Source of the DNA: an uncultured bacterium
GTDB taxonomy: Bacteria; Cyanobacteriota; Vampirovibrionia; Gastranaerophilales; Gastranaerophilaceae
Assembly (NCBI GenBank): GCA_946622415.1
Contig: CAMOPX010000003.1
Span: forward strand, 62,001 to 126,000
Direction: 5' to 3'
Length of the DNA stretch: 64,000 nucleotides
Position 1 is the stretch's first letter. Every line of letters starts with the position of its first letter. This document shows, piece by piece, positions 42,407 through 63,051 of the stretch. A model generated the notes under the pieces. That model ran no database searches. It was not told where the DNA came from and worked only from the letters and a program-made list of their open reading frames with translations. The position numbers were made by a program, and so were the translations under genes.

Positions 42407-43552
42407 ATGAAAAAGAATATTATAAAACCTCTGTTAATATCAATTTCTGTTGTTTTAATATTGCTTATTGCCTTGGTCTTTGTATTTTTAAATTACAAAA
42501 AATCGGGTGAAAATTCGGATATTACGCCTGTTCAAGAAGAAACACAAACTGATGAATTAAAATCTGATGTTTTGGATAAAATTAATGCATATCAAAAAAG
42601 ATATTTTGAAATTGCAAAAAGACACGATGCGCTTTTGGATTTGGCAAACAGTGAAGAATCAAAAAAAGATTTATCCGAATTAAAAGCTTTATTTGAAGAA
42701 GTGAAAAAAGAGATTCCAAAGGATTTAGAATACATAAAAAAATACGATAAAATCAAAAAAGATTACAAAAACAATACAGGCAATACAACACTTGAAATGA
42801 ATGAATTTGTATCAAATGAATACAAAGCTTTTGATGCTCTTTTAAATGAAACATATAAAGCTGTTCAACAAAATATTTCACCCGACGAATTTGAAAAATT
42901 AAAAGAATCACAAAGACAATGGCTGAAAGATGTTGAAGATTACAATAAAGTTTTTGAAGCAAAGGAATTCGGAACAATAGCCACTCTTGTAAAATTATCC
43001 TATGAAATAAATATGCGCGCGTACAGAACCCTGCTTTTGATGTTATATTTTAATGAAAAACAAACCCCTGTTGTTTTGGAAGATTTTTTGGGAAATTGGG
43101 ATGAAATTATTGCAGGCAGGATATATATTGAAATCAAGAAGAATAAAAACAATATACAAGTGGAATACGGCGGTTCAAATTCTGCTTATTCGCATTCTAA
43201 ATCTGTTTTTGAATGCGAATTTGACAATAAAATGTCGGATTTAGTATGCAACGGTGCAAAAAATACCGATTACTTTATTTCTTGTAACGGATATAACCCT
43301 ATGGATAGTATGGATAAATTTACGGAATGTATGGATAAAACTCCAAATAAACAAAAAGACGACAAAAAAGAATACTCAGACGACAAAACAAGAGTCTTAA
43401 CAATAAAAAAAGTAAAATACGGAAAACACGTTATTGATGATGAACAGTATCTTGATAACGAAAGAAAAAATCAATTAAAAAAAGATTACGAAAATATCGG
43501 TCTTTATTTTCAAGATGACCGAGAAACAGTTTATTACAAAAGTAAAAAATAA
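42407..43552 (+). CDS. membrane-anchored LprI-like protein
   Basis: A 381-residue protein with an N-terminal transmembrane anchor (residues 7-29) and an extracytoplasmic part. Residues ~120-215 match the DUF1311/lysozyme-inhibitor LprI N-terminal pattern: A-L-L-N-E-T-Y-K-A-V-Q, L-K-E-S-Q-R-Q-W-L-K, and Y-E-I-N-M-R-A-Y. The last ~150 residues form a charged beta-rich domain with cysteine pairs (F-E-C-E-F and L-V-C-N-G). LprI proteins can inhibit lysozyme, though many DUF1311 members are uncharacterised. GGGAG precedes the ATG. It lies 100 bp upstream of the six-gene envelope operon and may or may not belong to it. Confidence 0.7.
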   Translation: MKKNIIKPLLISISVVLILLIALVFVFLNYKKSGENSDITPVQEETQTDELKSDVLDKINAYQKRYFEIAKRHDALLDLANSEESKKDLSELKALFEEVKKEIPKDLEYIKKYDKIKKDYKNNTGNTTLEMNEFVSNEYKAFDALLNETYKAVQQNISPDEFEKLKESQRQWLKDVEDYNKVFEAKEFGTIATLVKLSYEINMRAYRTLLLMLYFNEKQTPVVLEDFLGNWDEIIAGRIYIEIKKNKNNIQVEYGGSNSAYSHSKSVFECEFDNKMSDLVCNGAKNTDYFISCNGYNPMDSMDKFTECMDKTPNKQKDDKKEYSDDKTRVLTIKKVKYGKHVIDDEQYLDNERKNQLKKDYENIGLYFQDDRETVYYKSKK

Positions 43553-43652
43553 CATTATTGTGTACTATAAATTTAATTGTTAAATATTGTTATTTTTTAT
43601 ATCATTTTACTTTTTTATCGTATAATTACATTAAATAATAGGGATGTATGTT

Positions 43653-43844
43653 ATGAAAGCTTGTTTATCTTTAATTTTAATTCTATCGACAGTTTTTACG
43701 ATTGGCGTATGCATAAAAAAACCCGTAATGCATAAACCTTTTTCCGTTAATACGGTAGAATACCTTGTTAAAATTAACGATGACGGCTCTATGACTACAA
43801 CCAAACAAACTACATATACTGAATTTATGAAAGAGAGCAAATGA
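43653..43844 (+). CDS. small membrane-anchored protein, first gene of the envelope operon
   Basis: A 63-residue protein with an N-terminal hydrophobic helix (residues 2-20) and a short exposed tail. The ATG at 43653 is preferred because AGGGA lies 8 bases upstream; an ATG three codons earlier sits too close to that site. After the helix it reads K-K-P-V-M-H-K-P, strikingly like M-K-P-K-M-H-K-V in the same place of the TonB-like protein at 47152, so the two may share an anchor or docking motif. Its stop overlaps the next start (ATGA). Function unknown. Confidence 0.6.
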   Translation: MKACLSLILILSTVFTIGVCIKKPVMHKPFSVNTVEYLVKINDDGSMTTTKQTTYTEFMKESK

Positions 43845-44863
43845 AAAAATTACTGTCTGTTTTAATTACGATGTTTTATTTTTCCGCTAACGCATACGCT
43901 TTTAGCGAATTGTACTATTTAAAAAATACTACAACACAAGAAATTATGCCGAAAGTTAAAAACGCATATTTATCAAAAAATTATTATCTTACAAAAGAAA
44001 ATCCTTATTACGGTACAAGCAATAAAGATGCAAACGAATATGCTGTTGTTATACTACAACAAAGCGGACAAAATATGTTCTATTATTATCAGTCAAATGA
44101 TAACAAGACAATAAATAAATACATTTTAAAACAAATAAAATCTTCTGATATTACAATAGAAAAATCGGAAAATTCACATTTAATCGGTATATATGACAAT
44201 CTTGCATCTCAAGTTATAAACCCCGCTGCAAAACCCGTTTATAATTTTGAAGATACTCCGCAAGTAACAACGAGTAATGTTTCAACAACCAAAAAATCAG
44301 ATACTCTGAGAGGTTATGTTGCACAAATTGATAAAGGCACAAAGTTCGGTGCGTATTTACAAAGCCCGATTAATACATCAACAGCTTCAGTCGGCGATCA
44401 GGTTGTTGCCGTATTGACCGATAATTGGACGTACAACGGACACATTATTGCAGAACAAGGCAGTGTTGTATATGGTGCATTAACCCTTGCTCACCCTGCA
44501 CAATACGGTTCAAGAAACGGACGTGTTGTAATAAATTTTGATAAAATAGTTACGCCGCAAGGTAAAACCCTGAACATTTCAACCGAAAAAATTGATTTTT
44601 CCGTTGAAAATGACGGAAAAGTTGCTTCCACCGCAAAAAACGTTGCAACAGGTGCAATCGTTGGAGCTTTAGGCGGATTGCTTTTGGGAGCATTATCCGG
44701 TACAGATAACCTTGGCAGAGCCGTTGCAATCGGAGCAGGTATTGGTGCAGGCGGAAGTCTTGCTACTTCTACAATAGAAAGAGGCGTAGATGCTGAAATA
44801 CCTTCATATACCGAACTTGAAATAGAACTATCAAAAACATTAAGAGTAACAGTAAGCGAATAG
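43841..44863 (+). CDS. exported TrbI/VirB10-like protein with glycine-zipper helix
   Basis: A 340-residue protein with a signal peptide ending A-N-A-Y-A (about residue 20). Residues ~155-270 match the TrbI/VirB10 beta-barrel pattern: D-K-G-T-K-F-G-A-Y-L-Q-S-P-I-N-T, V-G-D-Q-V-V-A-V-L, and I-I-A-E-Q-G-S-V-V-Y-G. VirB10-type proteins bridge the inner and outer membranes in type IV secretion. Next comes a glycine-rich helix (G-A-I-V-G-A-L-G-G-L-L-L-G-A-L-S-G, ~275-310) of the glycine-zipper kind that can insert in membranes. No other type IV secretion gene is present, so a stand-alone envelope role is more likely. It overlaps the preceding gene by 4 bp and is 9 bp from the next. Confidence 0.7.
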   Translation: MKKLLSVLITMFYFSANAYAFSELYYLKNTTTQEIMPKVKNAYLSKNYYLTKENPYYGTSNKDANEYAVVILQQSGQNMFYYYQSNDNKTINKYILKQIKSSDITIEKSENSHLIGIYDNLASQVINPAAKPVYNFEDTPQVTTSNVSTTKKSDTLRGYVAQIDKGTKFGAYLQSPINTSTASVGDQVVAVLTDNWTYNGHIIAEQGSVVYGALTLAHPAQYGSRNGRVVINFDKIVTPQGKTLNISTEKIDFSVENDGKVASTAKNVATGAIVGALGGLLLGALSGTDNLGRAVAIGAGIGAGGSLATSTIERGVDAEIPSYTELEIELSKTLRVTVSE

Positions 44864-44872
44864 GAATAATAA

Positions 44873-45541
44873 ATGAATAAAAGATTAATTATAGTCGGCA
44901 TTTTAATTTTAGCAATATCGGTAATAGGAAAGCTATTATTTGTAGGTTTAAAAAATATTAAAATTGATGATTTCCATAAATCGGCAATTATTTTTGTTGT
45001 GGATTCGTCGGCATCAAACCAAAAAATGCTTCCCGAAGAAACAAAATATATTAAATCCCTATGCTCTATTTTAGATCCCGAAGATGAAATCAAAATATTA
45101 AAGGTATCCGAAAAATCATATTTAATATACGAAGGTTCTCCTGCTGATTCATCGGGAATACTTTCCGCTTTAAAAGAATTTACAAAATACAACGAAAACG
45201 ACTACGGCACAGCTTATGGCGAAGCACTCAAAAAAGCGTTTGAACACGTTTTGACCATGAAAAAAGAAGGTTTTGTTCCTTCGATTGTCGTTGTCGGTGA
45301 TTTAGAAAATGAAGGTGCGGCAGAAAAACAAATAAACTGGGAAACATTACCCGAAAACGTTAAAAATGTTCAAAAATATGCACCTGATTTAGCAATGATG
45401 TTTGTATATGCTCATCCTGAAAAATTGGATTTGGTAAAATCAAAATTGAATCCTGTTCTGGGTGAAAAGAAGCTTGTTATAGCAAATAAAGAAAATGTAG
45501 ATAAAGCAAACAGAAGATTTTTAGAAGCAATAGGACGATAG
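44873..45541 (+). CDS. membrane-anchored von Willebrand factor A-like protein
   Basis: A 222-residue protein with an N-terminal transmembrane helix (5-27), followed by a VWA-type Rossmann domain. The metal-ion-dependent adhesion site appears as D44-S-S-A-S48 after a hydrophobic strand (I-I-F-V-V), and a second strand-plus-acid, V-V-V-G-D-L, lies around residues 141-146. The domain would face the periplasm. VWA domains usually bind partner proteins through Mg2+. The 8-9 bp gaps on both sides put it firmly in the operon. Confidence 0.7.
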   Translation: MNKRLIIVGILILAISVIGKLLFVGLKNIKIDDFHKSAIIFVVDSSASNQKMLPEETKYIKSLCSILDPEDEIKILKVSEKSYLIYEGSPADSSGILSALKEFTKYNENDYGTAYGEALKKAFEHVLTMKKEGFVPSIVVVGDLENEGAAEKQINWETLPENVKNVQKYAPDLAMMFVYAHPEKLDLVKSKLNPVLGEKKLVIANKENVDKANRRFLEAIGR

Positions 45542-45549
45542 GAGAAAAT

Positions 45550-47148
45550 ATGGGCTTTTCAATTATTTCAAAAGCGGGCGAAAAAACATTCTTAGATAAG
45601 GAAGTTGTTAATATATCATCAAGAGACGGTTATGACTACAAACTTGATGTTGATTTTGATTTTATGTTGACAATTCAATACAATAAATCAACAAACAAAT
45701 GCTATCTGTTGAATCAATTTAATAACACAAAGTTTTTATTCAAAGGAAAACCGCTTCCTCAAACCATGGAAATAAATAAAGTATGTAAAATTATTGCATC
45801 CGGAAGCGATGAATTTATTACAATAAAAATGCTTGAAACATCATACGATACCTCTAATCTGGGAAACAACATTGATGAAAGTGATATTAAATCAATCTAC
45901 GGTGATAAAGTAAATGCACAAACAAAAATAAAAATTGACCAATCAAAAGCTGAAATTGAAAAAGCAAGAGTTTCTATCGTAAAAGATATTTATGCCGATA
46001 TTAATCAGCTAAAAAGTAAAATTTCAGCAAATTCCAAAGCGGGAATTATGATTCATATCGCATTATATTTTGCATCTTTAGTTTGTGCTTTTGGTATTTC
46101 AAATTATTTAACCGGATTGCCGCTGGAAGATGCCGGTAATGTTATACAAATGCCCACAAATATGAAGCTTATATTTGTGTATTCGCTTGTAGTGTATGGA
46201 ATAGGTATGATTTTAAAACAAGGAGTATTTTTATACTTCCAAAATAAGTTGGGTGAAGATTCTTCCGTTTCCGTTGTTGCGGAAAAATTCATGATGGTTT
46301 TGCCTTGCATATTTTATGCAGCTGTGTATGTAATTAATGTATTGTATTACATAACACCAAAAACCTTCCCTATATTTGCGGTATTGATTTCGTTATTCTT
46401 TACCGGAACCGCTCTGACTCTTGCCCTTGCTTGCGGATATTATAAAAACAACAGTTTTGAAATGAGAAAAGAACTTAATAAATACGAATACAGACCTGAT
46501 TTTGAACATGTTATAAAAGAATACCAAAAATGGATTGAAATATACGCTAACAATTTAAGCAATACAAAAATTCGCAATATTAAAGATAAAACATTTATGC
46601 TTCAAATAAAACAATGGGGCGAAATACTTTTGGGTATAATAACAGCGCCCTTCCTTGCTTATGGTGTTTCTAACACTCTTGCAATGTGTTTCCCTGAAGC
46701 TGCAGGCTGGGTTAGAATTTCAGGTTTGAGAATTTCACCTGTATTTCTTGTATTGGCTATGTTTTTAATTATTTTTGCATTCTTTGCATTTGCAAACGGA
46801 TTTCTTGCAAATAAAAAAGTACAAGCATCAGACGTTTTGAAACAAGACGGCTTCAGTAATTATCTTCAACATGGTGTTGAAATATACGGACTTGAAGGTG
46901 TAAAAAAACTGGATAAAGAAATGAGAAGATTTTTTGCAATCGGCTTAATAATCGTGTTTATTGAATTTACAATGAACGCTTCCTTCTTTATGCAAGAAAT
47001 GGGCGGAGATTTGAGCGGATTAGCATTAAGTATCATTGCGGCTCTTGTTCCGACAGCTTTATTAATAGCTGAAACCTTTATGCTAAGTCAAACAAAATTT
47101 GAAACATTTGCCTGTGAAGAATTAATTGAAAAAATAGATAAAGACTAA
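45550..47148 (+). CDS. polytopic membrane protein with N-terminal beta-rich cytoplasmic domain
   Basis: A 532-residue protein. Residues 1-95 form a beta-rich soluble domain, possibly FHA-like, with S-S-R-D-G at 23-27 but without the full phosphothreonine-binding motif. Residues 125-162 are a charged helical linker. About eight transmembrane helices follow: TM1 at 164-186, then a cluster to residue ~285, a cytoplasmic loop of about 65 residues, two more helices, a second loop, and two last helices. I do not recognise the family. As the only polytopic protein in the operon it is the natural inner-membrane platform for the single-span VWA and TonB-like partners (inference). Confidence 0.65.
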   Translation: MGFSIISKAGEKTFLDKEVVNISSRDGYDYKLDVDFDFMLTIQYNKSTNKCYLLNQFNNTKFLFKGKPLPQTMEINKVCKIIASGSDEFITIKMLETSYDTSNLGNNIDESDIKSIYGDKVNAQTKIKIDQSKAEIEKARVSIVKDIYADINQLKSKISANSKAGIMIHIALYFASLVCAFGISNYLTGLPLEDAGNVIQMPTNMKLIFVYSLVVYGIGMILKQGVFLYFQNKLGEDSSVSVVAEKFMMVLPCIFYAAVYVINVLYYITPKTFPIFAVLISLFFTGTALTLALACGYYKNNSFEMRKELNKYEYRPDFEHVIKEYQKWIEIYANNLSNTKIRNIKDKTFMLQIKQWGEILLGIITAPFLAYGVSNTLAMCFPEAAGWVRISGLRISPVFLVLAMFLIIFAFFAFANGFLANKKVQASDVLKQDGFSNYLQHGVEIYGLEGVKKLDKEMRRFFAIGLIIVFIEFTMNASFFMQEMGGDLSGLALSIIAALVPTALLIAETFMLSQTKFETFACEELIEKIDKD

Positions 47149-47151
47149 TAA

Positions 47152-48072
47152 ATGAATTATAAAACCATATTTACAATAATTATTATAACGACGGTTGTTG
47201 CAACTTTGTGCATAATGGCTATGAAACCTAAAATGCACAAAGTTATGCTGATATATAATTCTGATTACGAATTAGTAAATAACGAAACTCCAAAAACGGA
47301 AGATAAAGATATTCCTGTTGTTGTACAGGAAGAACAAATAAAAACTTCCAAAATGAAATTAAATGAGATTGCGGATAGAGAAATAGCTTCCATACCCAAA
47401 CAAACAACAACCGTAAAAAAAGAAACTGCACCTGTTAAACAAAATACGGTGGCTGTTAAAAAAGAAACCAAAAAACAACCCGAGGTTAAAAAACAAACTG
47501 CACCTATTAAACAAAACACGGTTGCAGTAAAAAAAGAAACAAAACAACCCGTGCCCGAAAAAAAAGTTACGGTAAAACAAGAACCAAAAGCTGAGCCAAA
47601 AAAAGTTGAAGTTAAACAAGCACCTGTTGTTAATACTCAAAAAACCGTTCAAAAACCGGCTGAACCTGTTAAAGTCAAAACAACTCAAACACCGCCTGCG
47701 CCTCAGGTATTGACAAAAGAGCAGGAAGAAATTGCTTGGAATGTTTGGCGCTCAAACCTCCAAAATAAAATAATGCAAGATACAAATCTTCCGACTGTAC
47801 CAAATGGTACCGTATTCAGGTTTAAATTTGATGTGGATAAATACGGCAGAGTATCAAATATTCAAACATATTCGGATACTCCTCAATACACTCCCTATGC
47901 AATACAATATATTGCACCTGTTATAAGAAGTTATCAAGGCAAAAGAATTCTGAATTTCCCTCAAGGAACAAGCAGAATAACAACTACCGCAAAGGGTGCT
48001 TGGAAAATATCCAATAACACGAGATATTCAACGCCAAAAGACTACAATGACACCGAAATAATACAAAGATAG
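47152..48072 (+). CDS. TonB/TolA-like protein 1
   Basis: A 306-residue protein with a short cytoplasmic start, one transmembrane helix (5-24), then K-P-K-M-H-K, a Lys/Pro/Gln/Val-rich periplasmic linker (~75-185) containing two copies of a ~23-residue repeat (P-V/I-K-Q-N-T-V-A-V-K-K-E-T-K), and a C-terminal domain (~195-306). That domain fits the TonB/TolA C-terminal fold: F-K-F-D-V-D-K-Y-G-R-V-S-N-I then Y-A-I-Q-Y-I-A-P-V-I. TonB-type proteins reach across the periplasm and transmit force or contact outer-membrane partners. No ExbB or ExbD is visible here. It is 3 bp from the previous gene and 8 bp from the next. Confidence 0.75.
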   Translation: MNYKTIFTIIIITTVVATLCIMAMKPKMHKVMLIYNSDYELVNNETPKTEDKDIPVVVQEEQIKTSKMKLNEIADREIASIPKQTTTVKKETAPVKQNTVAVKKETKKQPEVKKQTAPIKQNTVAVKKETKQPVPEKKVTVKQEPKAEPKKVEVKQAPVVNTQKTVQKPAEPVKVKTTQTPPAPQVLTKEQEEIAWNVWRSNLQNKIMQDTNLPTVPNGTVFRFKFDVDKYGRVSNIQTYSDTPQYTPYAIQYIAPVIRSYQGKRILNFPQGTSRITTTAKGAWKISNNTRYSTPKDYNDTEIIQR

Positions 48073-48080
48073 GATAAAAA

Positions 48081-49256
48081 ATGTTCAGATGTACGGAATG
48101 TAATAAAGAATACGATATAAAACCAGATTATTGCGACGATTGCGGAAATGATGTATTTGTTGAAATTGCGCCGCAAGTTAATGAAACACCCGCTGTACAA
48201 AAACAAGAAGAAATTAAATCCGAACCTCAAATTCAAAATATTCAGGAAAGTACATATCAAAAGACTCCCCCGCATTCTTATTACGAAGAAAGAAAGCCCA
48301 TAAAAAAAGAAGAACTTTTATCTTATATTATTTTTTGTATGTGTTTGATTTTATCTTTTATGGTAGTTTTTGTGTATAACCCAAAAGAAACCCCAAAAGA
48401 AGAAGTTGCTAAAGAAAAACCCGATGTTGTAGCACAGAATATACCTACACTTGACAGTTTTTGGAATAATACTCCGGCAAAACCGGAGCCGCAAAAACAA
48501 ACCGTAATATCACAATTGCCCCAAGAACAAGAACCTGCAAAACCCGTAATTGTTAATCCTCCGCAAGAGGTGGTTCAAAAACCGGAACCAAAAACTACAA
48601 CCGTAAAATTAAAAACTGTTCCGATTACAAAAAACAATATATTTACAAAAAAAGAACCAAAACAAGTATCAACCAAAGCATCTGTTCAAACAAAACAACC
48701 CCAAACAAAAATTCAATCTAAATCTCAAACAACTCAAAATAAAGTTGTTCAACAAAAACCTGTAACAACTTCTAAAACTACAGTTCAAAAAAATACTGTT
48801 CAGCAAAAACCGACGCCCGTCAAAACACAGGTTCAAACCTCGCAAGCTTCTAAAACAATAACTCAAACAGCTCAATCAAAACCAATACAGGTAAATACTC
48901 AACAATCTGCTCAAACAGCAACTGTTCAAGTTCAACCATCCGTTGATACTGCGGCACTTAGAAAAGAACTTTCAACTTATAAAACATCGCTCAGAAATAC
49001 AATCGGCAGAAAAATTGATTTCACTGATGTTGTTGGGGATGGTTCATGCAGTATTATATTTAAAATAGATTCATCAGGAAGATTAACAAATAGAGCTTTT
49101 TCTAAACAATCAACAAATACAACCCTGAATGATGCCGTATATAAAGCAGTAATGAGTACGCCTTCATATAATCCCCCGCCAAGCGGATATAAGGGTGAAA
49201 CTTTGACATTAAAAATATCATTTTATAACGGTAATTTTGAAATTGCTTTGAATTAA
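48081..49256 (+). CDS. TonB/TolA-like protein 2 with N-terminal zinc ribbon
   Basis: A 391-residue protein. A cytoplasmic zinc ribbon (C4-x2-C7 and C18-x2-C21) opens it, followed by one transmembrane helix (~75-97), a long Gln/Thr/Lys/Pro linker (~100-290), and a C-terminal domain with C-S-I-I-F-K-I-D-S-S-G-R-L-T-N, a paired helix, and P-S-Y-N-P-P-P-S-G-Y. This closely follows the TonB/TolA C-terminal pattern (strand, D-x-x-G-R-L, helix, P-P). Zinc-ribbon plus TM plus TonB_C is an unusual combination. It is last gene of the operon and ends before a strong terminator. Confidence 0.78.
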   Translation: MFRCTECNKEYDIKPDYCDDCGNDVFVEIAPQVNETPAVQKQEEIKSEPQIQNIQESTYQKTPPHSYYEERKPIKKEELLSYIIFCMCLILSFMVVFVYNPKETPKEEVAKEKPDVVAQNIPTLDSFWNNTPAKPEPQKQTVISQLPQEQEPAKPVIVNPPQEVVQKPEPKTTTVKLKTVPITKNNIFTKKEPKQVSTKASVQTKQPQTKIQSKSQTTQNKVVQQKPVTTSKTTVQKNTVQQKPTPVKTQVQTSQASKTITQTAQSKPIQVNTQQSAQTATVQVQPSVDTAALRKELSTYKTSLRNTIGRKIDFTDVVGDGSCSIIFKIDSSGRLTNRAFSKQSTNTTLNDAVYKAVMSTPSYNPPPSGYKGETLTLKISFYNGNFEIALN

Positions 49257-49277
49257 AATGAAAAATATACAATAATT

Positions 49278-49321
49278 AAAAAACTATTGCGCAAAATAAA
49301 TAAAAAGCGCAATAGTTTTTT
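49278..49321. terminator. bidirectional terminator between the envelope operon and the VWA gene
   Basis: AAAAAACTATTGCGC / GCGCAATAGTTTTTT stem with a 14-nt loop, between the stops of two converging genes. Confidence 0.9.
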
Positions 49322-49348
49322 TAAGTTATACAAAATGTAGTTTTAATC

Positions 49349-50254
49349 TTAATCCTCGGGAATGTATTCATAGTTTTGTTTAGTTACTTCTTGAGGTACT
49401 GATTGAATTGAATCGGTCAGAACATTCGAGAAATCTGCAAGATTGTTTATTGTGTAGAATTTTCCGCCGGTATAATTTGCAAGACAAGTCAGACTTCTTG
49501 AATTAGAAGAAACTAAAACTACATCAATATGTACATCTGAACGTGTTTGCATTAATTTTTTAGCAAAAGCACAAGGATCGCCTCCGCAGTTTTCTCCGCC
49601 ATCGGTTATTAAAACAATCTTTTTAGCAGAGGTGGTGCCGTAGGGTTTAAAATCTTGATTAACTGTTCTGTCTAATGCATAAACAAGAGGTGTTGCACCG
49701 CCTAAATCAACAGAATTCATACCTGCTAAGATATTAGAAGCGTTAGCTGTTGAAATTCCTGTTACCTGTTGAGTTGCTGCACAAACTCCTGATGTTGAAC
49801 CGAGTGAAGAGGCTTCTGTTACAACAGAGAATTTGTTTCCTTTTCTTACTATTTTTTTAATTTCTTGCAGAGTATTTGTAGTTGTCGGATTATTGCCGTA
49901 GCTGTCGTGTCCGAATACCCTGAAGCCTAATTGTACATTAGACGGTATTTGGCTGATAATTGCTGCCATACTTCTTTTTGCAACAGTAATCCAGTTTGCC
50001 ATACTGCCCGAATAATCCATTACTATTTCAACTATTCCTGCTTGTGTTGCATTAACTTGATTTGATGCAATATAATTTTGTGTGTAATAATTGTTGTAGT
50101 AGTTTTGATTGGTTGAATTAGCAGGAGAAGTTATTACTTGACCGCTTGAATTTTTGACGGTGCCTGATGTATTTACTTTGTATTTTGCGGCTTCAGTTGA
50201 GCCAATTGTAGCTAATATCGCACAAATTATAGCTATAGACGCATATTTTTTCAT
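49349..50254 (-). CDS. secreted von Willebrand factor A domain protein
   Basis: A 301-residue protein with a signal peptide (1-22, ending T-E-A-A). A low-complexity Asn/Tyr/Gln stretch (45-65) comes next, then a full VWA domain: MIDAS D80-Y-S-G-S-M, the threonine in G-G-A-T-P-L, and I-T-D-G-G-E-N-C-G-G-D. All metal-coordinating motif positions are present. Cysteines around C-G-G-D-P-C suggest disulfides in the periplasm or outside. It lies tail-to-tail with the operon containing another VWA protein, so a functional link is plausible but unproven. Confidence 0.85.
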   Translation of the reverse strand: MKKYASIAIICAILATIGSTEAAKYKVNTSGTVKNSSGQVITSPANSTNQNYYNNYYTQNYIASNQVNATQAGIVEIVMDYSGSMANWITVAKRSMAAIISQIPSNVQLGFRVFGHDSYGNNPTTTNTLQEIKKIVRKGNKFSVVTEASSLGSTSGVCAATQQVTGISTANASNILAGMNSVDLGGATPLVYALDRTVNQDFKPYGTTSAKKIVLITDGGENCGGDPCAFAKKLMQTRSDVHIDVVLVSSNSRSLTCLANYTGGKFYTINNLADFSNVLTDSIQSVPQEVTKQNYEYIPED

Positions 50255-52111: not shown

Positions 52112-53293
52112 CTATGGATTGGTATCAATCATTGATTTATAACTATTTACCATACCTTGTCCAAATATTTTTTCACTAGGTACAGTTTGTACAGGGTTAG
52201 CTTTGCAAATTTGTTCGGCTTCGTTAAAAACTACTGTTATACTTCCATATCCGAAACTACTCCTACCATCCCATGTGTGATTCCATACATCACAAACTAA
52301 ATCATATATTATACCAGGTGATGTACCACCGTTATCACCGGAATGTACTGTATATGCGTATTTTGCGATAAGATGATTGTCTCCTGAGCATGTGTATAAT
52401 TGCAAGACTGGTTCTACGGAAGCAACCGGAAAAGTATCTTCTGATTGTATATTTGTTGGACAATTATGATAATAAATTTTATAAGACACAGGTTTTGCGT
52501 ATTTGCATTCCTGCCAAGTTGAATTATAATCACTACATTTTTTTGAATGTCCATCATTTTTATCGATATAATAGCTGTTATTAATTACACTCAGGCATTT
52601 TGTTGAATCGCATGATGCGCATCCTTCTCCAAACTGTTGTTCGCAATCGTTTTTACATACTCCGTCTTCGAGTTTGTATCCTTTTGCTGTATCACATGCT
52701 GTGCATTGTGTTTTATTACATGTTATACATCCTGTACCGTATTTCACGGCACAACAATCTCCTGTTGTACATGATTTTTCGCATGACCCGTTTTCTAATT
52801 CATAACCCGTTTCGCATTTTGTACAAATTCCGTCAGATTCATTGCAATCAGCACAATAGGGGGTTTTATCCGAACATGCAACACAAGCATTGTTTAAAAA
52901 ATATTCTCCGTAATTGCATTTGGTATCTTCACATTTGCAAGTACGATAATTAAGTTTCTTACCTTCATTTAGACAAGATTCATTATTTAATTCGCAACTG
53001 ATACACGTTGTTTGACCGGATTCGACTGCACAATAAGTACAATTTTCACCGCAATCCGTAGACTTATACTTTGAATTACTGCTTGAGACAGCACTTGCGG
53101 AATGATGAATATGTCTGCTTATTACCGGAACTAAAGCGGCTAAAACTATTGATAAAGCAACAAACATAAATCCGAGTTCAAGTACCGAAAAGCATTGCTT
53201 AATCTTAATTTTGAAATTTTGTTTTTTAAAATTTTTAAATTTATTTGCTAATATATATGTATAATATTTTAATGATTTAAATATATTTTTCAT
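52112..53293 (-). CDS. prepilin-like protein with cysteine-rich furin/EGF-like repeats
   Basis: A 393-residue protein. A long basic leader (~33 residues) precedes F-S-V-L-E and a hydrophobic helix (~35-60). This resembles a prepilin signal except that Cys, not Gly or Ala, sits before the cut, so processing is doubtful. Residues ~78-235 contain roughly 30 cysteines in repeats of the type C-x2-C...C-x2-C-x-x-G-Y-x-L-x-x-G-x-C, as in furin-like, growth-factor-receptor and protist variant-surface proteins. The last ~150 residues are a separate domain with scattered cysteines. It is most likely a disulfide-rich surface protein anchored in the inner membrane or a pilus. Confidence 0.75.
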   Translation of the reverse strand: MKNIFKSLKYYTYILANKFKNFKKQNFKIKIKQCFSVLELGFMFVALSIVLAALVPVISRHIHHSASAVSSSNSKYKSTDCGENCTYCAVESGQTTCISCELNNESCLNEGKKLNYRTCKCEDTKCNYGEYFLNNACVACSDKTPYCADCNESDGICTKCETGYELENGSCEKSCTTGDCCAVKYGTGCITCNKTQCTACDTAKGYKLEDGVCKNDCEQQFGEGCASCDSTKCLSVINNSYYIDKNDGHSKKCSDYNSTWQECKYAKPVSYKIYYHNCPTNIQSEDTFPVASVEPVLQLYTCSGDNHLIAKYAYTVHSGDNGGTSPGIIYDLVCDVWNHTWDGRSSFGYGSITVVFNEAEQICKANPVQTVPSEKIFGQGMVNSYKSMIDTNP

Positions 53294-61710: not shown

Positions 61711-63051
61711 ATGTCAAATTTAGACGAAAAAAAGCAAAAGATTAAACAGCAGTGTGAAGAATACAATGTTGCATATATCAGATTACAGTTTTGTGATATA
61801 AACGGAGCTATAAAAAATCTTTGCATGCCTGTTCGCCAACTTGATAAAGTCATGAATAACGAAATTATGCTGGATGGTTCTTCTATTAAAGGATTTCGCA
61901 GCATAGAAACTTCCGATATGTATTTTTATCCCGATTTGGATACTTTTATGATTTTACCTTGGTGCGAGCAAAACGGTGAAAACGTCGCAAGAATAATCTG
62001 TGATATTCATAATGCAGACGGAACCCCATTTGAAGGTTGTCCCCGCTGCAATTTAAAAAGAATGCTTAAACGCGCGGAAAAATTGGGCTACAAAATGAAT
62101 GTAGGTCCTGAAGCCGAATTTTTTATATTTGAATTTGATGAAAAAGGCAGAGCGACTACGATTACCCATGATAAAGGCGGATATTATGATGCAGCGCCGA
62201 CAGACATGGGAGAAGATATCAGACGTGATATAGTCGGTATTTTAGAGGATATGAATTTTGAAATTGAAGCAAGTCACCATGAAGTATCCGACGGTCAGCA
62301 TGAAATAGATTTTAAATATACGGATGCTCTAAAAGCTGCGGATAACATAATCACATTTAAATATGTCGTAAAAAGTATTGCAAACGAATACGGTGTCCAT
62401 GCAACATTTATGCCAAAACCGATTTATGGAATTAACGGTTCGGGCATGCACTGTAATTTATCCTTATTTAAGGACGGTGAAAATATATTCTATTCTCCCG
62501 ATTCTCCTTATCAACTTTCAAAAGAAGCATTGTATTCAATAGGCGGTGTTTTAAAGCACGTTAAATCGTTTACTGCCGTTACAAATCCTATTGTCAACAG
62601 TTATAAACGTATAGTTCCGGGTTTTGAAGCTCCTGTTTATTTGGCGTGGAGTTTAGCAAATCGTTCCGCACTAATAAGAGTTCCTGCAAAACGCGGTGTT
62701 GCAACAAGAATCGAATTACGTTCACCCGATCCGAGCTGCAATCCGTATCTTGCTTTAGCTGTTATTTTGGGTGCAATTTTAGACGGTATAGAAAATAAAA
62801 TAGAACCGCCGACACAAGTTGAAGAAAACATATACGGAATGACAAAAGATGAATTAAAAGAAGCAAAAATCGAATCACTCCCGGGAACCTTGATAGAAGC
62901 GGTGAATTTACTTGAAGGTGATGAAGTTATTAAAGATGCATTGGGCGAACACATATTAAATGAATTTATCACGGCAAAAAATATCGAATGGGATAAATAC
63001 AGAACCTGTGTTACACAGTGGGAATTAAATACATATCTTAATAATTATTAA
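61711..63051 (+). CDS. glnA: type I glutamine synthetase
   Basis: A 446-residue enzyme (glutamate + NH3 + ATP to glutamine). Motifs: L-D-G-S-S-I-K-G-F near residue 55, G-P-E-A-E-F-F-I-F near 132 (metal ligands), N-G-S-G-M-H-C-N near 246, and [10 protein letters not shown] near 338. The length and the absence of the N-L-Y-D-L-P adenylylation segment suit the shorter GSI-alpha form, unlike the ~470-residue GlnA of photosynthetic cyanobacteria. GGGAGG lies 8 bases before the ATG. It is monocistronic with a strong terminator. Confidence 0.95.

Follow-up and report, generated by a model that had tools for sequence, protein, structure and literature searches.

A conserved six-gene operon of the Gastranaerophilales, a candidate Ton/Tol-like trans-envelope complex built on an FHA-headed membrane protein

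In the current view, a single motor family (MotA/ExbB/TolQ) underlies the transfer of energy to the outer membrane. A six-gene operon (A–F) in an uncultured member of the Gastranaerophilaceae (assembly GCA_946622415.1, contig CAMOPX010000003.1), a lineage of mostly gut-dwelling, non-photosynthetic relatives of cyanobacteria, raises the question of whether the two membranes may be coupled in another way. The unit has TonB-like and VWA arms and an FHA-headed hub (D) without sequence kinship to that motor, which would suggest either a second driving mode or a passive membrane-coupling scaffold. The operon lies in the window, i.e., the whole stretch of 64,000 nucleotides that was analyzed (positions 62,001 to 126,000 of the contig), and its features are given below in window coordinates.

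A, 43653..43844, + strand: small single-pass anchor protein (alternative in-frame ATG at 43644)
B, 43841..44863, + strand: probably exported protein with a TrbI-like beta-barrel (residues 163–296) and an overlapping glycine zipper (267–305)
C, 44873..45541, + strand: one membrane helix followed by a VWA domain with the D-x-S-x-S / T / D metal site
D, 45550..47148, + strand: putative hub with an FHA-fold head (residues 1–96), a long helix (123–188, containing the first transmembrane segment) and eight transmembrane (TM) segments
E, 47152..48072, + strand: one TM segment with a KPxMHK motif, a K/P/Q/V-rich linker and a weakly TonB-like C-terminal domain
F, 48081..49256, + strand: N-terminal zinc ribbon, TM segment (80–98), Q/P/K/T-rich linker and C-terminal TonB_2 domain
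Hairpin after F, 49272..49328, + strand: terminator-like, with a T run
X, 49349..50254, − strand: VWA protein with an N-terminal hydrophobic segment, convergent to the operon; a possible partner

We consider the chances about even that the operon encodes a lineage-specific Ton/Tol-like trans-envelope complex built on D. The coordinates of the open reading frames (ORFs) agree with the original prediction, made from the letters of the window, of a same-strand unit with gaps of 3–9 bp and one ATGA overlap: A and B overlap by 4 bp (ATGA), and the remaining gaps from B to F are 9, 8, 3 and 8 bp. The hairpin downstream of F has a folding energy of −20 kcal/mol (shuffle z −7.4); with a loop of 14 it fell outside the limit of 8 used in the consensus terminator scan and hence was not listed there. 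The promoter scan gave no excess over chance (25 found vs. 26.9 expected).

Conservation and distribution of the operon

The six genes are a real conserved unit, restricted to one lineage, and their arrangement is more than chance because homologous order recurs in dozens of loci. Collected loci (L039–L115) included 75 clusters with a long D, 57 of which had enough flanking sequence for gene-order counts. The complete order A–F was found in 21 of these 57 loci and B–F in 35, so that conservation of the gene order across Gastranaerophilales, which the original prediction had proposed as its check, was borne out. E was encoded on the same strand as D in 56 of the fully flanked loci, C in 54 and B in 47. 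When the neighboring proteins of at least 80 residues were clustered (77 loci and the window), X (12 of 78 loci) was the only family beyond A–F to exceed 8 of 78.

A search with D gave matches in 100 of the 146 genomes sampled from the order (23 of 40 genera). Five of them (G033, G054, G057, G113, and G143) contained a head-only copy of 100 residues, leaving a longer D in 95 of 146. At the phylum level, D was matched in 102 of 292 genomes and 22 of 115 genera and, among the matches listed, all belonged to the window's own family; the order-level search yielded one match outside this family, in a genome that is 66% complete (G020), where the contig is 8.7 kb long. Pattern scanning of GTDB r220 (one genome per species, close relatives only) named 57 loci, and plasmid and phage records showed no D match at an E-value of 1e-5. 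Records titled ‘uncultured Acinetobacter sp.’ (L049, L057, and L060) also carry the operon (in L057, only C-D-E was seen), with D placed inside the main clade; these labels are probably wrong. To our knowledge, no strain in culture carries the operon.

E was present in 91 of the 146 genomes and, when the genome lists were compared by eye, all 91 also had D. The nine genomes with D and without E comprised the five head-only genomes and four with full D (G105, G123, G126, and G128); in the loci fetched from two of these four (L102 and L103), the unit consisted of C-D-F. Other variants were C-D-E alone and X-X-B-D-E-F without C, the latter represented by three loci (L098, L107, and L108) in which two divergent copies of X are present and C is absent. 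In the D tree (74 rows), the X-X-B-D-E-F type and the C-D-F type each formed one starred group, and the C-D-E type appeared at two places of the drawn tree. In one genome (L110, 4071–14309), a B–F unit is accompanied by a distinct C-D-E unit, with about 1.3 kb between the two. No small substitute for A was seen upstream of B in the 11 loci checked.

The membrane hub D and the question of a motor

Hydropathy averaged over 48 D sequences showed eight TM segments, while the window sequence alone, under a stricter limit, gave seven. The predicted model placed an FHA beta-sandwich fold in the head, in keeping with the eight-helix membrane protein with a beta-rich cytoplasmic head of the original prediction. 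The fold-match list for the D model was filled by this head, with the FHA domain of Rv1747, an ABC exporter, as the best match. At the phosphothreonine-binding motif, the consensus of the D head reads IGS, where GR is usual in FHA domains. The only Pfam match common to more than four of the 48 members was a weak one to DUF2207_C (15 of 48), which in the window protein stayed under the cut-off (2e-4). PDB sequence searches with D and with its head returned nothing significant, and an internal duplication of the membrane domain found no support (1.3%). Stand-alone copies of the D head, 99 residues long, occur in one genus (L100 6021–6320, L101 6387–6686, and L113 6798–7097) near genes that by eye resemble EmrA/EmrB efflux components.

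A kinship of D to the known motor was sought at two levels. PF01618 (MotA_ExbB) was not among the 18 Pfam families matched by the 48 D proteins at E ≤ 0.1, and D as a remote ExbB was not supported by an hhalign comparison with 15 ExbB sequences (probability 0.1%), a run that included no positive control; the match of F to the profile of housekeeping TonB (97.8% probability) shows that profile comparison does find TonB kin. Seven residues of D (K223, E358, E472, N476, T502, E508, and T509) are invariant (each 48 of 48) and located inside or next to TM segments. It is conceivable that D represents a class of ion-driven inner-membrane motor unrelated to ExbB/TolQ/MotA, which would drive two TonB-like arms and the VWA arm, some of them via the KPxMHK motif, and in which E358, E472 and E508 would line the ion path; on balance we hold this to be unlikely. 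We rate a motor no more likely than a passive tether.

The eight TM segments, the long helices that would extend into the cytoplasm and the resemblance of the head to Rv1747 could also be those of a transporter or exporter of an envelope component, for which the VWA and TonB-like proteins would act as accessory handing-over parts. However, none of the six proteins has a transporter or ATPase domain by Pfam, and the only recurring Pfam match of D is the weak one to DUF2207_C, which makes such a function quite unlikely in our judgment.

The TrbI-like protein, the arms and the proposed complex

The B protein of the window matched TrbI below the Pfam cut-off (1.8e-5; 25.1 bits against a cut-off of 35 bits) and, also under cut-off, a glycine zipper (0.0023). 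Across the family, the C-terminal barrel of TrbI/VirB10 matched 16 of 38 members at E ≤ 0.01 (best 1.4e-9), in agreement with the VirB10/TrbI-like barrel with glycine zipper predicted originally; a PDB sequence search with B gave nothing significant. In the same genome, a homologue of B precedes tonB, exbB, exbD and exbD (L141 1703–5836, contig C17). Likewise, a TrbI-type glycine-zipper protein stood immediately ahead of TonB, and ExbB and two ExbD came next, in all 20 Ton loci considered (L141–L160), i.e., this one and 19 selected among the 144 ExbD-containing genomes (families f1, f3, f6, and f7); one of them (L148) has a short TonB-like ORF between TonB and ExbB. The B profile scored 91–161 bits against the TrbI protein of the other 19 loci. 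As such a protein heads Ton loci, the TrbI barrel points to Ton rather than to type IV secretion. In 17 of the 20 loci, a second short homologous gene was observed upstream.

Given the TrbI match of B and a VirB10 model value of 0.016, the operon could otherwise be a type IV secretion or conjugation system built on VirB10/TrbI, in remnant or variant form. The original prediction had found no other type IV secretion parts in the unit. No secretion ATPase is a constant neighbor: the gene neighbors, which were clustered and not annotated, contained only X besides A–F in more than 8 of 78 loci, with VirB4/VirD4 not searched elsewhere in the genome. Given the gene neighborhood and the TrbI–Ton linkage in 20 of 20 loci, a type IV reading of B was rejected, and as an account of the operon we give it hardly any probability.

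The absence of ExbB/ExbD, also part of the original prediction, is true of the operon and not of the genome, where they are encoded in the locus headed by the B homologue. The genome has two MotA_ExbB matches, on contigs C14 and C17, and none on the contig of the window (C3). In the order, ExbD is present in 144 and the ExbB/MotA family in 145 of 146 genomes. A TonB-receptor plug domain was absent from the genome of the window and matched in only 10 of the 146 genomes (nine over the cut-off). Since 136 of 146 genomes lack the plug, the Ton-type proteins of the order probably do not mainly serve receptor-driven import. Judged from these gene inventories, the near-universal ExbB/ExbD, the TrbI-headed Ton locus in the genomes read and the scarcity of receptor plugs hint at an unrecognized role of Ton in the lineage. 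The genome of the window (92% complete) has a single OmpA-domain match, on contig C14 beside a MotA-type match; given this position, MotB is a more probable identity than Pal. Two or more OmpA matches are present in many of the other genomes from the order. Five further loci of the same genome (L001, L005, and L007 on contig C5; L004 and L006 on contig C35) encode proteins of unusual build, which combine an N-terminal hydrophobic segment with two or three TonB_C domains in a single chain.

Of the two TonB-like proteins claimed originally, F stood and E proved weaker than claimed. F matched TonB_2 over the Pfam cut-off (5.8e-7), its profile resembled that of housekeeping TonB as stated above, and a PDB sequence search reached a TonB chain at 0.0014. 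The zinc ribbon predicted at the start of one of the two was recovered in F as a cysteine pattern in 51 of 52 members, the exception being a fragment of a split gene. C matched VWA_2 over the cut-off (4.5e-6), and 33 of 42 aligned C proteins kept the full five-residue metal site (D-S-S-T-D), consistent with the predicted membrane VWA protein with an intact D-x-S-x-S site. A homologue of X, a protein not part of the original prediction, recurs beside the operon, in 11 of 77 loci within the sequence that was fetched. In A, a KPxMHK-type motif is located next to the membrane and is followed by a conserved tail, and P.[MLS]H is present in 33 of 33 members including that of the window. In E, P.[ML]H was found within the first 50 residues of 33 of 42 members (28 of 42 when K, T or E must follow). 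The same motif was also considered for C and found weak (FHK in 21 of 42, histidine absent in 10 of 42), and C was therefore left out.

E and F could be ordinary TonB-type arms energized in trans by the housekeeping ExbB/ExbD, with D merely a scaffold, and both the presence of these motors in nearly every genome and the closeness of the F end domain to housekeeping TonB would suit such an accessory Ton system. In 18 of 19 housekeeping TonB proteins, however, the N-terminal hydrophobic membrane helix carries S-x3-H (L148 was left out by the filter, and L154 has A in place of S), whereas the looser [SAT]xxxH is absent from the membrane helix of all 52 F proteins and present in that of 4 of 72 E proteins; a histidine within or near the helix is found in 13 of 72 E. 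Among C proteins, [SAT]xxxH was detected in 1 of 70 and an Asp or Glu in the TM core in 0 of 70. With this motif nearly absent from E, F and C, and with no acidic TM residue in C, the arms probably do not work with ExbB/ExbD in the established manner. The distribution of E, moreover, follows that of D and not that of ExbBD. An accessory Ton system thus appears unlikely.

As the only multi-pass protein of the unit, D is the natural partner of the arms, and a complex built on it can be outlined from the domains and predicted topology. D would sit in the inner membrane as the hub, with its FHA-fold head and long helices in the cytoplasm, and the single-pass proteins A, C, E and probably F would dock on it, the KPxMHK motif directly after the membrane helix of A and E being a candidate docking site. 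E and F may cross the cell wall on their flexible linkers and present TonB-like end domains, while the VWA domains of C (and X) may bind periplasmic or surface-located partners. B, with its TrbI barrel and glycine zipper, would be the partner on the outer-membrane side, a role that its homologue in the housekeeping Ton locus may share. Such a complex would probably act as a tether, or mechanical linkage, that joins the outer membrane and the surface with the inner membrane.

Several observations weigh against this proposal. Nothing positive ties D to a motor. The distribution is patchy, with D in 2 of the 9 genomes of the window's own genus in the 146-genome sample, and the copy in one of these two (G120) is only 40% identical and belongs to a C-D-E unit. 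F and A were encoded on the strand of D in only 40 and 27 of the 57 fully flanked loci; these loci are not independent, as many are near kin, and L088 and L114 hold the same D. Gaps in some relatives reach ∼1 kb or more (L051, L086, and L088), so tight co-translation is not general. The end domain of E is weakly TonB-like: profile comparisons gave probabilities of 24% and 40%, no TonB family was among the Pfam matches of the 42 E members at E ≤ 0.1 (the E protein of the window had no Pfam match), and the PDB sequence search reached TonB chains at E-values of 0.53–0.7, which are not significant. The KPxMHK-type motif is absent from 9 of 42 E proteins, six from C-D-E units and three from X-X-B-D-E-F units; all nine come from units without A.

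Two flanking genes were noted. Just upstream of the operon (42407–43552) lies a gene for a protein with an LprI (lysozyme inhibitor) domain, present in 2 of 28 genomes of the genus including this one; a comparison of empty-site flanks in the genus via this gene was uninformative. At 52112–53293 (− strand), a protein with a pilin-like N-terminal helix followed by cysteine-rich stretches is encoded, with no Pfam match over the cut-off.

Comparison with known systems

The original prediction knew of no described system of this composition. No description of this operon was found in the open-licence literature, as judged by titles and the beginnings of abstracts; designs related to it are nevertheless in print (PMC12204202, PMC3169522). 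In one such paper, vWA proteins tethered to the inner membrane are proposed to carry force across the periplasm together with TolQ-like motors (Williams-Jones 2025, PMC12204202). The VWA protein there has an SHLS/His helix or an Asp pore helix and adjoins tolQ-like genes, and the phyla listed in section 8 of that paper do not include cyanobacteria (PMC12204202). C resembles these transducers in combining an inner-membrane helix with a VWA domain. It differs from them in mostly lacking either motor motif and in adjoining D instead of a tolQ-like gene.

In the Agl-Glt gliding machinery of Myxococcus, CglB has a VWA fold and GltJ carries a zinc ribbon, and we know of no D-like hub or TrbI barrel there. 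GltG is a protein with FHA and TonB domains (PMC3169522) and GltJ a second modular TonB-like protein (PMC5349195), so that FHA and TonB domains and two modular TonB-like proteins meet in one envelope-spanning complex. With FHA on D, the zinc ribbon and TonB on F and VWA on C and X, the operon might similarly specify a surface apparatus whose arms transmit force to VWA adhesins for attachment or gliding. Agl-Glt, however, uses a TolQR-type motor (AglRQS) along with TPR and outer-membrane proteins, and joins FHA and TonB in one protein. The operon splits them between D and F, placing FHA on the hub and not on the TonB arm; it has no TolQR-type gene, and the PF01618 matches of the genome are on other contigs than the window's. 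A surface apparatus of this kind is therefore improbable.

The housekeeping Ton locus (TrbI-TonB-ExbB-ExbD-ExbD) shares with the operon a TrbI/glycine-zipper protein, a TonB-type arm and a multi-pass inner-membrane partner. Its motor, in contrast, is ExbB/ExbD, its TonB carries the S-x3-H motif, and the ORFs of the locus in the genome of the window show no D-like protein. As in Tol-Pal, TolA-like arms would couple the membranes rather than serve receptor import, whereas domains of TolQR, TolB and Pal are absent from the six operon proteins (the genome was not searched for TolB). Roles other than import have likewise been proposed for some TonB-like proteins of Anabaena (PMC8597729, PMC8262864). 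Taken together, the operon may be viewed as a variant of the Ton/Tol/Glt kind, the hub of which could prove to be more.

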